In this document: positions 15,187-38,268 of the stretch, one piece after another
Layout of the letters: every line of letters starts with the position of its first letter
How positions within the stretch are numbered: position 1 is the first letter of the stretch
Assembly (NCBI GenBank): GCA_016742275.1
Contig: JACVCD010000004.1
Location: 124,001-188,000, forward strand
Source of the DNA: Gemmatimonadaceae bacterium
GTDB taxonomy: Bacteria > Gemmatimonadota > Gemmatimonadetes > Gemmatimonadales > Gemmatimonadaceae
Reading direction: 5' to 3'
DNA length: 64,000 nt
Position numbers and translations under genes: made by a program
Notes under the pieces: model-generated
Database searches by the model: none
Seen by the model: only the letters and a program-made list of their open reading frames with translations
What the model was told of the DNA's origin: nothing

Positions 15187-15363
15187 TTCAACTGCGCACG
15201 CAGAGCCGCAGAGAGTCGCGGAGGCGCAGAGGGGACCGGAGACGCTTCGGGGTATGACCGCCTCGCCGTTCAATACTTCAGTTTCTATCCTAGCGCCCCC
15301 CTTCTTTGTTGGCACACCTCTGCGGCTCTGTGACTCCTCTGCGCCTCTGTGTGTGCGGTTGAA
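15187..15363. repeat. Small inverted-repeat element (MITE-like)
   Basis: Two imperfect inverted arms of about 46 bp, at 15187-15232 and 15317-15363, enclose 84 bp with no gene. The arms are built from CGCAGAG-like words and differ by several substitutions and one indel. It resembles non-autonomous repeats scattered in environmental genomes. No transposase and no clear target-site duplication were seen. Confidence 0.65.
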
Positions 15364-29215: not shown

Positions 29216-29318
29216 GAAAATCGAGAACTCCGAAGCGTATCCTGGGTAACAGCTGCTGCTGCGCCCTCCCTCATGAGTGCTCCTCATGCGCAGCGCGACC
29301 GGCGAACCGGAGATTGCA

Positions 29319-31778
29319 ATGAGAATTTGGGGCCTGGCGATAGGCGCCTTGTTCGTGTTGGGCTGTGCACATGCGGCAAAACAACAGGAACGGGTACGTC
29401 GGGCCGTGGATTTGGCGGATTCGCTGTCGGCGTTCCCCGAAACCGAACTGGCAGCAATCATCACGTACTCCGATTCTCTCGGGCGTCGCGGTCCGGAACG
29501 CAAGTATGCGGGAATGCGTGGTACACAATGTGTTTCGCTTGCGTCCCAGGTCGATCCCACGACGGCGATTGCAGCAGCACAGCGATTGATCGAACGCAAC
29601 GAACGTGTGCCGTTCGACTCACTCGACCTTTGGAGTCTGTGCGCTACGCACAATTGGCAGCTTGCCTTTGGACTCTCGGGAGAAATCCCACTGACCTGGT
29701 TGGCAGATCACGCGGCGACGTCCTTGCTGTCCATTCATGCTGCGCATCGCGCCAAGGGTTTGGTCCGGTTCGACAGTGCGTTGGCCGCCACACTCGCTCG
29801 AGGGGATACAACCCAGGCCCGCAGTGCCCTGGCGCAATTCGCGCTTGAGATGTGGGTGCGCGCACAGGCGCGGCTTGAGCGCCCACTGCGCGGAATTCAT
29901 GATCAGGAGCACGCCGTGCATGATCTGGCCGCTGGCATGCCGCTACGATTTGCTGCCTTGCCGCCCATTCCCGCCACGTCGGATTTACTCGGCGAGTCCG
30001 AAGCAGAGTGGGCCGCGCGCTTGTTCACGACTGGCGCAGAGTGGACCAAGGGCCCGCGACGCAGTTGGTGGTATCGCCTCTCCCTCGCGCCTTGGGTTGC
30101 CATGGCGAAATGGGATGCGCTCGATTCAGCGGCCACGCATTCACTTACGCGCGCACCGGGCGACTCCGCACTCGTCATGGCCAGACCGCTCGCGCATTGG
30201 TATACGGAACGCGCACGCCCAGCGGCGGCGGCCAGAATCGACTCTCAATTCGATCACGCTGCGGCGCAACTTCCACGCGTGGATTCGGTTCGCTACGACG
30301 GTTTTGACAATGTGCTTTCAGCCGACGACGACGAATGGCGCTATGGCTTTCTGCCGGATACGCGTCGCAACATTGATCGACGTGGATGGGTGGTGCTCGA
30401 TCCCATGTGGACGACCCCCACGAATGAAATCAGGCTCGCCAAACGGGTGCGTGTCGCCGAGTCGGACTATCTCTATGCCAATGTGACGCGAGTAGGCCAG
30501 AGTGGAAGTGAAACACATGCTGGTCGACTGCACCTGCGCCGTGGGCGCCCTTCGATGCGATGGCAGTTCGTAGAGGACCGTGGAGGATTGCTACACTTCG
30601 AGCGCCTGTGGGACGGGGTCGTCCAGCGTATTGCGATCGAAGATACGCGAGAGTGGTGGAAGGCTTTCAGCGGTGGCAGACAACGCGCCGCGCAGATGGG
30701 AGTTTGGGCCATTGCGAAAAACACTCCGGATTGTGAATGGCACGAGATTCCGATCACCGCAACGGCCTGCGCCGAACGCCAACGAGCCCTGTGGACGGGT
30801 GTGCGTTTCGTGGGTCGCATGGACACAGTGGATGTCATGCTCGCGCGGTTCCGTGCGGCCTCTGATTCAGTCGACATGCATGTGGAGAGCCGCATCCCGC
30901 TCCGCACATTTCCGCATCGTGACTCACCGCGTGTACGACGGGACTCCCGCATCATCACCACGCTGTTCCTGCGCAATGAACTTGGTGGTCCGATCATCGA
31001 AAAGACCACGGAAGCCGCCCTGCTCCCGAGCAATCGCATCGCCCTTACGCATCAATGGGACGTACGGACGGGAACGGGCCAGGTCATGCATCGGGTTGAA
31101 TCGTGGGAGGCGTCCCGTGACGCCGCAGCTCGTGGAGTCATGCACTTCTCATCTGATGCCGCGATTCGGATTCCGGTTCGTGGTTTTGGTATGAGTGATG
31201 TCTTGATCACCGGGAATGCCGTTGAGAACAGACGGCCGGCACAACGCTGGAGCGATTTCACTTTCACACCGAATGCCGGCGTCGTGGCGCAAAAGGAGCG
31301 CTTCTCGTTGCTCTGGGAGATTTATGAGCTGACGCCGGGTCCCGATGGACGCGTACGATGGCGTGTGGATATCCGGCGCGAGGCTGGTGAGGCCACGACC
31401 TCCGCCGACATGCGTGACGCATTGACCACAGCGACAAAGGCCGGTGCCAAGGTCGAAGCAGATGAACCCGATGCGGCGTCTCTCAACTACACGCGCGAAG
31501 CTCCCGCCCGTGCGGTCATCGTGGAGCATGTGAAGCTACCCATTCCTGAGAAAGCGCCACATGGACGGCATGTGGTATCGATCAAGGTCACCGATCTGGT
31601 GAGTGGTCGATCGGAAACACGAAGCACTCCAGTCCGCGTGCTGCTCCCTTCGTTGCAGCAACGCATCAACACCACGCCCCCCGCACCACTGGTCGCTCCA
31701 TCGATGGGGATGCCGACGGGATCGAGACCCGTAGTGCGTCCGCCTCGTCCTCCAGTCGACGAGAATCGACTGCATTGA
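29319..31778 (+). CDS. GWxTD-like lipoprotein, copy 1
   Basis: Predicted lipoprotein of 819 aa; the signal MRIWGLAIGALFVLGC ends in a lipobox with Cys16. ATG 29319 has GGAG about 8 nt upstream. Central residues 355-410 resemble the GWxTD domain: RRGWVVLDPMWTTPTNE, then AESDYLYA, then GSETHAGRLHLRRGRP at 396-411. In place of G-W-x-T-D there is G-S-E-T-H. The C-terminal part (SLLWEIYELTPGPDGRVRWR) matches the partner beta domain of that family. Its function is unknown; assignment is by pattern. Confidence 0.7.
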   Translation: MRIWGLAIGALFVLGCAHAAKQQERVRRAVDLADSLSAFPETELAAIITYSDSLGRRGPERKYAGMRGTQCVSLASQVDPTTAIAAAQRLIERNERVPFDSLDLWSLCATHNWQLAFGLSGEIPLTWLADHAATSLLSIHAAHRAKGLVRFDSALAATLARGDTTQARSALAQFALEMWVRAQARLERPLRGIHDQEHAVHDLAAGMPLRFAALPPIPATSDLLGESEAEWAARLFTTGAEWTKGPRRSWWYRLSLAPWVAMAKWDALDSAATHSLTRAPGDSALVMARPLAHWYTERARPAAAARIDSQFDHAAAQLPRVDSVRYDGFDNVLSADDDEWRYGFLPDTRRNIDRRGWVVLDPMWTTPTNEIRLAKRVRVAESDYLYANVTRVGQSGSETHAGRLHLRRGRPSMRWQFVEDRGGLLHFERLWDGVVQRIAIEDTREWWKAFSGGRQRAAQMGVWAIAKNTPDCEWHEIPITATACAERQRALWTGVRFVGRMDTVDVMLARFRAASDSVDMHVESRIPLRTFPHRDSPRVRRDSRIITTLFLRNELGGPIIEKTTEAALLPSNRIALTHQWDVRTGTGQVMHRVESWEASRDAAARGVMHFSSDAAIRIPVRGFGMSDVLITGNAVENRRPAQRWSDFTFTPNAGVVAQKERFSLLWEIYELTPGPDGRVRWRVDIRREAGEATTSADMRDALTTATKAGAKVEADEPDAASLNYTREAPARAVIVEHVKLPIPEKAPHGRHVVSIKVTDLVSGRSETRSTPVRVLLPSLQQRINTTPPAPLVAPSMGMPTGSRPVVRPPRPPVDENRLH

Positions 31779-31842: not shown

Positions 31843-34227
31843 ATGCGTGTGATTCTTCTGCTGGCCGTCTGCACGGCGGCTCTGTGGTCTTGTCGGCATG
31901 GTGCGCCAGCATCGGAGCGCGTCCGGCGCATGATGGAGCTCAAAGACCCATGGGAGGGGAAAGGCGGCTCCGTCCTGGCAGGGATTACCGTTCAAAGTGA
32001 TTCGCTTGGCAGACGAGGCATACTGCCACGTGAATATCCGGGCATGCGCCTGACCCCCTGCATGGTCGACAGTGCGCAAAACAATGCAACCATCGCGCTC
32101 AAGGGGGTACGCCAATTGGTTGCGCGGAATGAACGCGTGCCATTCGACTCCACAGAGTTGATTGCCATGTGCGTGCATCACGGCTGGACGCATCTTTTCA
32201 ATCTCGTGGGTTCACCACCATTGTCCTGGATTGCAGAGCAGACCGTCTGGCAACTGCTCTCAGTGCACGTGGCACATCGAGCACAGGCGCTAGCAAGATT
32301 CGATTCTGCTCTATCTGCGACGGCCCGCCGCGGCGACTCGATCAGCGTCCGCGATGGGTTGATTCCTTTTGCTGATGAGCTGTGGACCCGCGCACAGGCG
32401 CGCCTCGAACGCCCACTGCGCGAAGTACAGTCTGAGGAGCAACGCGTACACGACCTCGCCGCCGGCCTGCGACCTCTGACAACCTTGGCGCCAGTTCCTG
32501 CAACCTCTCGATTGCTTGGTGAATCGGAGGCAGAATGGAGCGCGCGCCTTTACGCCCAAGCCGCGCGGCTCTCCACGGGCCCCGATCGCAGTAGGTGGCT
32601 TCGAATGGCTTTGGCACCCTGGGTCGCAATGTCTCGGTGGGCCGCGCTTGATTCAGCAGCGAAGGACATGTTGCGATGGGCGCCCAATGACTCTGCGTTG
32701 GTAATGGCCGGACCGCTGGCCACCTACCACCTGGCGGGCAGCAATGTGTCACGTCTCCCGGAAGCTGAAGCGGCCTTCCAGAACGCCTCGCGGTACCTAC
32801 CGCGTGTCGATTCGGCCCGCTTCTATGACTTCGATGGCATCTTGACGCGAGACGACGATGAATGGCGATATGGGTTTCTCCCGAACGACCGATTGGATAT
32901 CGATCGTCGCGGTTGGCTCGTTATTGATCCGATGTGGAGCACGCCAGTCAACGAAGTGCAGCTCGCGCGAATGGCTCGCATGGCTGAAGCAGACTACCGC
33001 TACGCGCAGCATGCGCGACCGGGACAGAGCGGCAGTGAAACACCCAGTGGTCGTGTCCATATGCGCCGGGGCGCGCCATCAGCGCGATGGGAGCGTATCT
33101 ATCCCGGTCGATTCGACAACTTTCGATATTTCCGTCGGACCTGGGATGGCCTTACCCAGGATATGCAGGTCGAAGATCTGGCAGAATGGTGGCGCGCGTT
33201 CGCCGGTGGGCGCCAACGGGCGGCGCTCCTTGGATTCTGGACCGTGAAGCAGCGCTCGTGTCTTGATCCGCGATTCCTCAATGCCGCCTATCGCTGTGTG
33301 GAGCAGGAACGCGCAAGCTGGAAGGGTGTCCCCTTCGTTGGCACCATGGACACAATCGACGTCATGCTGGCCCGATTTCGTGGAGGACTAGACTCGATGG
33401 ACTTGCATGTTGAGGCACGAGTCCCGCTTCGCTCGTTTCCCCATCAGAAATCGGCGAACGTACAAGCGAATGCACGAATTGCCACCACACTTTTTCTGCG
33501 GCAACCGATGGGCGAGCCCATCGCAACTCTTTCGACTTCGGATCCACTCCCGCCCAAGGACCGCATAGCCTTCGTGCAGCAATGGCAGACGCGCGCTGGA
33601 CCTGAAGAAGTGATGCACCGTGTCGAGGCCTATGAACCGCTAAGCGCAAGTGCCGCTCGGGGAATCATGCACTTCAACTCCGACGCTGCCATTCGCATCA
33701 ACGTCCGCGGCTTTGGCATGAGCGATGTGTTGATCACAGGCCATGCAGTTGAGCAGGTTCGCCCTGCGGTGCGGTGGAACGACTTTGTCTTTACACCCAA
33801 TGCGGGTGTTGTCCTTCCCAAGGAACGATTTTCGGTCCTGTGGGAGATCTATGATCTCACACCAGGCCCTGACGGGCGCATCAGATGGAGTGTGAATATG
33901 CGCCGTGAGACTGGAGAAATAGTAAACAACGTCGACATGCGCGACGCCTTGACCACAGCTCGCAAAGCAAGCGCGAAAGTGCTTGCGGACGAACCCGATG
34001 CGTCATCCCTCAGTTACACCCGGGAGGCGCACGCCAAACCGGTGGTCGTGGAGCACATCAAGCTACCGCTGCAGGGAAATGCACCGTATGGGCGCCACGT
34101 GGTCTCCGTCACGGTCACCGATCTCGTAAGCGGTAAGCGTATCACCCGCAGCACAGGTGTTCGACTTCTCGTGCCATCGTTGCAGCGTCGACTGGATCCG
34201 ATAGTACCTGTGTTGCCTTTCAGGTGA
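31843..34227 (+). CDS. GWxTD-like lipoprotein, copy 2
   Basis: Predicted lipoprotein of 794 aa with signal MRVILLLAVCTAALWSC (Cys17). It aligns with the gene before it along nearly its whole length: shared blocks include ERVPFDS, QARLERPLRE, FAGGRQRAA-like and RGFGMSDVLITG. The GWxTD-like motif reads GSETPSGRVHMRRGAP starting at residue 397, almost the same position as copy 1. The two genes are therefore a tandem duplication, 64 bp apart. It is convergent with the histidine kinase gene, 3 bp away. Function unknown. Confidence 0.7.
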   Translation: MRVILLLAVCTAALWSCRHGAPASERVRRMMELKDPWEGKGGSVLAGITVQSDSLGRRGILPREYPGMRLTPCMVDSAQNNATIALKGVRQLVARNERVPFDSTELIAMCVHHGWTHLFNLVGSPPLSWIAEQTVWQLLSVHVAHRAQALARFDSALSATARRGDSISVRDGLIPFADELWTRAQARLERPLREVQSEEQRVHDLAAGLRPLTTLAPVPATSRLLGESEAEWSARLYAQAARLSTGPDRSRWLRMALAPWVAMSRWAALDSAAKDMLRWAPNDSALVMAGPLATYHLAGSNVSRLPEAEAAFQNASRYLPRVDSARFYDFDGILTRDDDEWRYGFLPNDRLDIDRRGWLVIDPMWSTPVNEVQLARMARMAEADYRYAQHARPGQSGSETPSGRVHMRRGAPSARWERIYPGRFDNFRYFRRTWDGLTQDMQVEDLAEWWRAFAGGRQRAALLGFWTVKQRSCLDPRFLNAAYRCVEQERASWKGVPFVGTMDTIDVMLARFRGGLDSMDLHVEARVPLRSFPHQKSANVQANARIATTLFLRQPMGEPIATLSTSDPLPPKDRIAFVQQWQTRAGPEEVMHRVEAYEPLSASAARGIMHFNSDAAIRINVRGFGMSDVLITGHAVEQVRPAVRWNDFVFTPNAGVVLPKERFSVLWEIYDLTPGPDGRIRWSVNMRRETGEIVNNVDMRDALTTARKASAKVLADEPDASSLSYTREAHAKPVVVEHIKLPLQGNAPYGRHVVSVTVTDLVSGKRITRSTGVRLLVPSLQRRLDPIVPVLPFR

Positions 34228-37344: not shown

Positions 37345-37563
37345 AGCCTCGGCTTCAGAATCGCGATACTGCGGTGAATGACAATCTTGACATCAGCCAA
37401 CAACTGAACCTGCGGTCATAACGCAGAAGCGTCAATTCGTGTTCCTGTACTAAGGCTCGGAACACTTAGTCCTAACTGGGAGGGTGAGAGGTCGGAGGTG
37501 GCCGGGAGGGTTCGCTTTTGGACGATCTATCCAGCGGATGGGTGAGAGGCTGAGAGGGCCAGC

Positions 37564-37601
37564 TGGAAATAGACATTGAGAGGGTGAGCAACTCCGGAGC
37601 C
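37564..37601 (+). repeat. Left inner inverted repeat (38 bp)
   Basis: Begins TGGAAATAGACATTGAGAGG. Its reverse complement recurs at 38141-38178 with two mismatches. It ends about 100 bp before the four-helix-bundle gene. Confidence 0.9.
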
Positions 37602-37703
37602 CAGCTCCCGGAGGTTCGGCGGAAGGGTTGGGTGTGCGTCAGAATGTGTCGACTGGCGAAGAATCGGTGCGACACGCGAGAACATCCGGCCCTATCGTGG
37701 CAC

Positions 37704-38093
37704 ATGCCCCACAACCCATCGAGGCTACAGGTCATTGATCGGGCGTTTGCATTGGCCGTGGCGATTCATCGCCTGGCCGACCGTCACGCCGAGGCTCTTG
37801 CCAGTTGTAGCCCTAGCCTACGTTCGCAACTTCTGCGCGCAGTTGACTCCGTAGCGAGCAATCTCACCGAAGCCACCGCCTTCGACGCACCGAAGCGCTG
37901 CCGCGCATTTCTCCGAATTGCCATCGGTTCATGTAACGAGGTTGAGTTGCAATTGCGACTCGCAGTCGCTTTGCAGGCGCTACCGGAATCGGCAAGCACA
38001 AGCATCGCGGAGACCGTCACCGTTCGCCGCATGACCTACGGTTGGATGAAGCATCTGGAGGAAAGAGCTGCAAGAGGGCTACCGTGTGAGTAA
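37704..38093 (+). CDS. Four-helix-bundle protein (S23/Avd-like)
   Basis: Protein of 129 aa of the family known from intervening sequences in 23S rRNA genes, related to Avd of diversity-generating retroelements. The helical signature is present: SQLLRAVDSVASNLTEATAF, then KRCRAFLRIAIGSCNEVELQ. The ATG at 37704 starts where the family usually starts. The molecular role of the family outside retroelements is not established. Here it is neither inside an rRNA gene nor near a reverse transcriptase but enclosed by long inverted repeats. Confidence 0.88.
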   Translation: MPHNPSRLQVIDRAFALAVAIHRLADRHAEALASCSPSLRSQLLRAVDSVASNLTEATAFDAPKRCRAFLRIAIGSCNEVELQLRLAVALQALPESASTSIAETVTVRRMTYGWMKHLEERAARGLPCE

Positions 38094-38140
38094 TGCTCAC
38101 ATCACCAACCGCAGTCCTTGCTCCAGCACCTCCGAGCACC

Positions 38141-38178
38141 GGCTCCTGAGTTGCCCACCCTCTCAATGTCTATTTCCA
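38141..38178 (-). repeat. Right inner inverted repeat (38 bp)
   Basis: Reverse complement of 37564-37601 with two mismatches; it begins 47 bp after the stop of the four-helix-bundle gene. Confidence 0.9.
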
Positions 38179-38202
38179 TCTGACACTCTCAGACTCTCAA
38201 AG

Positions 38203-38260
38203 TCTGAGAGTCTGAGAGTCTGAGAGTCGAGAGTCGAGAGTCGAGAGTCGAGAGTCGAGA
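38203..38260. repeat. Tandem short repeats TCTGAGAG (x3) and TCGAGAG (x4+)
   Basis: Three copies of the 8-mer TCTGAGAG are followed by four full and one partial copy of the 7-mer TCGAGAG. Just before it, 38186-38210 can form a 10-bp hairpin (CTCTCAGACT with AGTCTGAGAG). It abuts the rpoC terminator. Confidence 0.95.
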
Positions 38261-38268
38261 AAAGAAGA

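Follow-up and report, generated by a model that had tools for sequence, protein, structure and literature searches.

Proteins of the S23 family are known mainly from open reading frames in intervening sequences (IVS) of ribosomal RNA, and their function is not known (PMC4990558). What does such a gene do when it resides elsewhere, between two long arms of an inverted repeat? The case discussed here comes from a window of 64,000 nucleotides, by which we mean the whole stretch of DNA analysed, in a genome of the Gemmatimonadaceae (4.57 Mb; G000 in the following). The neighbours of the element are rpoC and a sensor kinase gene. Its parts are:

37543–37601, forward strand: left arm of the inverted repeat, 90% complementary to 38141–38199 and found at nine other intergenic loci of G000
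37564–37627, forward strand: left half of the palindrome as in compact gene-less copies, aligned with positions 22–85 of the compact copy C4:109945
37628–38107, forward strand: gene cassette of 480 bp, exactly at the hairpin apex; missing from compact copies, in which the halves abut at 85/86
37693–37698, forward strand: TATCGT, probable −10 box of a leaderless promoter, with the TANNNT pattern of S23 genes of the genus
37704–38093, forward strand: S23 four-helix-bundle gene, 129 aa (ATG at 37704, stop codon ending at 38093), assigned by PF05635, TIGR02436, structure model and PDB matches
38108–38199, forward strand: right half of the palindrome as in compact gene-less copies, aligned with positions 86–179 of C4:109945
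38141–38199, reverse strand: right arm of the inverted repeat, pairing with 37543–37601; same dispersed family
38179–38265, forward strand: outer short tandem and inverted repeats of the (GAGAGTC)n type with units of 7–8 nt; autocorrelation peaks at lags 7/8 and 14/16

An earlier note on this DNA had described a compact repeat unit with a single S23-type gene within long, nearly symmetric arms, and with neither a transposase, a reverse transcriptase nor an rRNA gene at the locus. This description is borne out. The arms measure 59 nt each and enclose 539 nt. In profile searches the protein reaches 62.4 bits with PF05635 (cut-off 33.8) and 66.8 bits with TIGR02436 (cut-off 24). ORF inspection yielded no second plausible gene between the arms, the sole one being that of PF05635, and no reverse transcriptase was found in or beside the element. 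Rfam gave no match at this locus or at the other five S23 loci of G000, i.e. no rRNA gene; given this result and the neighbours rpoC and sensor kinase, an association of the element with rRNA was rejected. Elsewhere in G000, a weak RVT_1 match (30.3 bits; C4:68494-68940), lying in a long frame with one TGA, is the sole signal that resembles a reverse transcriptase. Folding of the transcript had also been proposed: the 657-nt strand of the element folds with −302.8 kcal/mol (z = −9.9 versus dinucleotide shuffles). The arrangement of the arms and the S23 gene is well beyond chance.

The 64-kb window holds just one further inverted repeat of comparable kind with arms not more than 3 kb apart. It is built from CGCAGAG-type units (15187–15232 / 15317–15363; 83% over 47 nt, gap 85) and has no match to any S23 locus in the sample; it may be an orphan hairpin family that has lost its S23 gene. 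Two large neighbouring ORFs of the window, 29277–31778 and 31843–34227, are related to each other and probably stem from a tandem duplication.

The model of the window S23 protein has a pLDDT of 95.4. Its best Foldseek matches are 2gsc (XCC0516) and 2rld (BT_0352), with TM-scores of 0.81–0.87 by target length. Both structures were solved in 2006–2007 and are labelled as hypothetical or of unknown function. After the S23 structures the list continues with Avd (4dwl, 8ub7, 8ub8). The S23 protein of Xanthomonas is a homopentamer (PMC4990558). A recognisable nuclease, transposase or other catalytic domain was found neither by profile search nor in the structure model nor by Foldseek. Across 203 S23 proteins from many phyla the polar residues Q42, R45, S49, N53, E56, S76 and E79 (window numbering) are nearly invariant, and they may form a binding or active site. 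No plasmid match to the window protein was found.

A TANNNT motif starts 11–13 nt before the ATG in 57 of 90 S23 genes of the genus, and a Shine-Dalgarno-like sequence in none of the 90. This pattern points to a leaderless S23 mRNA that would be transcribed from inside the arms. The 5' arm would then lie outside the gene's own mRNA and, in consequence, pairing of the arms would have to take place in DNA or in read-through RNA. When read inward, most arms (83 of 94) are rich in G. A G-rich 5' arm as a signal of the coding strand was, however, rejected, because an inverted repeat reads alike from both strands.

The earlier note had looked to further copies of the arms in the same genome, and many are indeed present. 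The window arms have copies at nine further intergenic places in G000, mostly as close inverted pairs without a gene between them; such copy numbers, here and below, are approximate and are to be read as lower bounds. Eight of the gene-less copies were folded and gave hairpins of about 130–160 nt with −72 to −105 kcal/mol. When the window element is compared with the compact copy C4:109945, its two palindrome halves abut, and the compact copy equals the window element minus 480 bp, which places the gene with its promoter exactly at the apex. Five of the nine copies are flanked by convergent genes and the other four by tandem genes; no copy has divergent neighbours, and the distance to a stop codon is often less than 50 nt. 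Among the 30 congeners searched, the arm family is confined to G000; the other matches in that search were the S23 gene itself or short bits of the outer GA-rich repeat.

Within the dispersed copies, the two arms are no more alike than arms from different copies, and covariation within copies was not significant (P ~0.34 in G048, P ~0.10 in G000). RNAalifold with eight G000 copies revealed six pairs changed on both sides, the covariation term being unfavourable. Given these results, structural conservation of single hairpin copies is not claimed. The lack of covariation within copies argues against the view that each hairpin is under selection once inserted; it agrees with a decay of the inserted copies.

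S23 genes come with their own repeat families. G000 contains six S23 genes in total. Three of the other five are likewise enclosed by long imperfect inverted repeats (74% over 174 bp, 81% over 166 bp and 72% over 82 bp) of unrelated sequence; of the remaining two, one lacks an inverted repeat across the gene, and the other is truncated at a contig end. The flanks of these other genes also recur in G000, many as plus/minus pairs. The idea of multi-copy arms around TIGR02436-type genes, as put forward in the earlier note, thus stands in so far as other such genes also lie inside inverted repeats, but their arms differ. A single arm family shared by several S23 genes did not emerge: the families are unrelated from one S23 gene to the next, and their dispersed copies carry no gene.

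The same holds beyond G000. The best inverted repeat between two flanks of 350 bp reaches at least 40 bits in 92 of the 118 S23 loci of Gemmatimonadaceae for which both flanks were available, versus 0 of 234 controls (Fisher P 3e-61); the controls, taken 1 kb away with equal geometry, are mostly coding DNA rather than intergenic DNA only, and none of them reaches 30 bits. Flanks paired across different S23 loci gave a strong inverted repeat in just 2 of 120 cases. The 19 loci of the 118 that stay below 30 bits have no inverted repeat. Dispersal of S23 arms was checked in five congeners, many congener genomes being draft assemblies. The arms of the rpoC-side S23 gene have at least about 40 matches in the closed genome G048, and those of one S23 gene about 40 in the closed genome G086. 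About 20 matches were seen in G107, a handful in G022 and several families in G101; the largest family exceeds 40 copies. For the most part, arms dispersed in their own genomes form plus/minus pairs. When S23 genes at non-syntenic loci share less than 60% protein identity, none of 661 pairs has detectable similarity of the arms. Above 60% identity six non-syntenic pairs were testable, by which a coupling of arms to protein cannot be shown; the comparison serves only to state that different S23 lineages have different arms.

Two side observations belong here. The S23 genes L009 (G000:C7:288524), L071, L061 and L059 have high family scores and no inverted repeat across the gene; possibly, they are a domesticated or decayed group. 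S23 copies with an in-frame stop are found at G022:C1:995518 and G086:C1:2497243, where the repeats persist; judging from the reading frame, these copies are probably pseudogenes.

Sites that can be compared between species tell more about the fate of the elements. Downstream of rpoC, an S23 element is present in 11 of the 16 genomes covered (L316–L331). The S23 gene has one orientation relative to rpoC in G000, G108, G101, G086, G114 and G119, and the other one in G048, G113, G109, G069 and G098; relative to the window gene, the inverted ones are L319, L320, L322, L324 and L326. These flips fit recombination between the arms. The element is absent in G106, which has a gene-less hairpin instead, and in G107, G022 and G104; it looks decayed in G115. 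The arms within one rpoC-side element score 86.8 bits on average, versus 27.6 bits between species. Evidently, both arms change together, be it by selection for pairing or by conversion.

The sole syntenic site of a gene-less copy that was compared is C18:43k, where the genes on either side align in seven congeners. There G000 has a hairpin of the window family and G048 one of the family of its own rpoC-side S23 gene. A GGGGGCA-type hairpin occupies the site in G098 and G069, and other families do so in G106 and G086. G107 has, in 91 nt, nothing but a short terminator-like hairpin; in G022 the site contains an insertion of 2.2 kb. When aligned with the empty site of G107, the similarity is lost over the intergenic gap, and neither an exact junction nor a target-site duplication was resolved. 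In G109, a complete S23 element is present at two loci; these are 93% identical over ~1.85 kb and have no similarity outside. As judged from such alignments, the states of the element at the rpoC side, at C18:43k and in G109 show repeated gain, loss and copying, which does not imply any particular chemistry. Empty sites at orthologous loci, which the earlier note had linked to mobility, do exist, since the rpoC side is free of the element in some congeners and C18:43k is empty in G107. Mobility itself is only partly upheld. Multi-copy arms and element-free sites speak for it, but the insertion in the window is an old one: at least ten congeners have an S23 element in this position beside rpoC.

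The anatomy is not restricted to Gemmatimonadaceae. In 43 contigs of a viral collection, 26 S23 genes have inverted repeats of at least 35 bits, versus 0 of 138 controls. In a scan of GTDB genomes, for which 80 loci were picked by protein alone, 28 of 77 loci reached at least 35 bits and 44 of 77 at least 30 bits, versus 1 of 267 controls. These loci span Bacteroidota, Pseudomonadota, Chloroflexota, Planctomycetota, Verrucomicrobiota, Patescibacteria, Bacillota, Archaea and others. S23 arms are dispersed in a genome of the Terriglobia and in a planctomycete (~40 matches each) and more sparsely in the other genomes tested.

Many S23 flanks consist of degenerate tandem heptamers. Autocorrelation is in excess at lags 7, 14 and 21 in the GTDB set. 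In Gemmatimonadaceae the excess is at lags 7 and 14, with a slight rise at lags 8 and 16 too. The periodicity is the only test with an intergenic control, a comparison made because the shifted controls are mostly coding: within intergenic DNA, the lag-7 excess is 0.168 beside S23 (n=57) versus 0.020 in the remainder of these loci (n=256; Mann-Whitney P 1e-15). In the window itself, heptad periodicity is weak in the left side and in the core arm, the units of 7–8 nt being confined to the outer right repeats.

How does this compare with known systems? In Coxiella and Leptospira, rRNA IVS with an S23 ORF have complementary borders that form a stem-loop, and they have been described as selfish or parasitic (PMC4990558). 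The window S23 ORF is also placed inside a stem of complementary flanks. The window element, however, lies outside rRNA, has dispersed gene-less copies in intergenic DNA and one arm family per S23 lineage, with heptads in many families. Like REPIN/RAYT systems (PMC3116915), it has hairpin-forming inverted repeats interspersed in the genome, a particular gene linked to them and numerous non-autonomous copies; yet the linked gene encodes a four-helix bundle instead of a tyrosine (HUH) transposase, the arms are longer and the gene is in the loop. The Avd protein of diversity-generating retroelements has, according to the model, the same fold as S23, but the S23 element is devoid of a reverse transcriptase, and none was detected in closed genomes rich in S23 families. 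Thus, the S23 element lacks one defining feature of each of these systems: the location of rRNA IVS, the HUH transposase of REPIN/RAYT and the reverse transcriptase of the Avd systems. Heptanucleotide intergenic repeats of unrelated bacteria (PMC4679880, PMC4692102) are similar in their degenerate or exact 7-nt tandem units; those papers, however, describe direct repeats and do not mention S23, whereas the S23 arrays are inverted about a gene. MITEs of insertion sequences, too, are short inverted-repeat elements that are non-autonomous and have a longer relative with a gene; in the S23 case, however, this relative encodes no transposase.

The explanation we are inclined to accept, if with some reserve, is a class of interspersed hairpin elements linked to S23, which resembles REPIN/RAYT in its logic and has no recognisable transposase in the element; we infer the role of S23 in their spreading. 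The window element would be the gene-bearing member of such a family, a long palindrome with degenerate heptanucleotide units in many of the families and spread across intergenic sites, one copy of which bears a promoter and an S23 gene as a cassette at its apex. An S23 oligomer would most probably recognise the hairpin of its own repeat, either as single-stranded DNA in replication or as read-through RNA. These two are favoured over the S23 mRNA, because a leaderless mRNA would lack the 5' arm. S23 would then promote copying or insertion of the hairpin via host enzymes of replication and repair. The gene-bearing copy would thereby act as the source and the gene-less ones would be its non-autonomous offspring. 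This is supported by the apex gene with its gene-less copies, the enrichment of inverted repeats, the separate arm families, the concerted arms, the turnover, the recurrence of the anatomy across phyla and the lack of RVT_1 in closed genomes. Against it speak the lack of a recognisable catalytic domain in S23, the loci without an inverted repeat, the second window hairpin that matches no S23 locus, and the arms of dispersed copies, which are no more alike within than between copies.

Alternatively, S23 may be a passenger of repeats that grow from short units by replication slippage and are spread by host recombination; its elements would persist in intergenic DNA rich in these repeats, and the protein would have another role, e.g., in RNA binding or in handling damage at hairpins. 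A protein without recognisable nuclease or transposase domain, heptamer repeats from genomes in which no link to S23 has been noted (PMC4679880, PMC4692102) and at least one window hairpin without a match to the sampled S23 loci would be in line with this. Chance residence, however, does not let one expect the inverted geometry, one arm family per S23 lineage or the concerted change of the arms, and the periodicity is missing from other intergenic DNA of the same loci; we thus consider the passenger role rather unlikely. Still less probable is an unlinked enzyme such as a RAYT or an IS200-like transposase that moves the hairpins, S23 being a cargo or accessory gene gained in the loop. REPINs do spread this way (PMC3116915), and the compact hairpins are like such non-autonomous elements in size and placement. 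A shared enzyme, however, would be expected to act on common ends, while within one genome the arms of S23 genes from different lineages have nothing in common, and genes of this one class would need to have been acquired again and again across phyla.

Hairpins that are immobile and selected by the host as bidirectional terminators or mRNA 3' ends could account for their high stability and for the position of the window family, with five of nine copies between convergent genes, often close to stop codons, and none between divergent ones. This placement, however, equally fits avoidance of genes and promoters. The restriction of the arm family to one of 30 congeners, an orthologous site with unrelated families or none, and pairing that is not kept within copies make such a host function very improbable. 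We give least credence, and very little indeed, to a retroelement in which a reverse transcriptase copies the hairpin RNA with S23 acting like Avd, although Avd structures come directly after those of S23 among the PDB matches. RVT_1 (PF00078) was detected in just 3 of 30 congeners. The closed genomes G048, G086 and G022, the first two of which contain tens of copies, gave no match, and the leaderless mRNA would not contain the 5' arm. A general dependence on reverse transcriptase was rejected, since these closed genomes lack RVT_1.

We return to the S23-linked hairpin elements as the preferred explanation. Heptamer repeats are known from Beggiatoaceae, Cyanobacteria and Bacteroidetes; the mechanism of their transmission was not evident, and S23 was not mentioned (PMC4679880). 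In the open-access literature we found no paper that connects S23 genes with heptamers or with repeats of a dispersed kind. A wider version, plausible but somewhat more likely to fail than to hold, would make S23 a dedicated hairpin-spreading factor of bacteria and archaea. The elements would be a mobile class without transposase, in which an oligomeric bundle hands its cognate hairpin to host replication and repair and has thereby made many of the heptanucleotide repeats of prokaryotes; rRNA IVS would be copies that landed in tolerated rRNA helices. Two questions are thus joined, the role of the widespread S23 proteins and the transmission of the abundant prokaryotic heptanucleotide repeats, and the association of S23 with its own repeats across phyla brings both of them within reach of tests with a single protein and a single set of oligonucleotides. 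Should this be confirmed, the S23-linked hairpins would join REPIN/RAYT as a further class of interspersed elements, one that makes use of no known transposase and of no reverse transcriptase.
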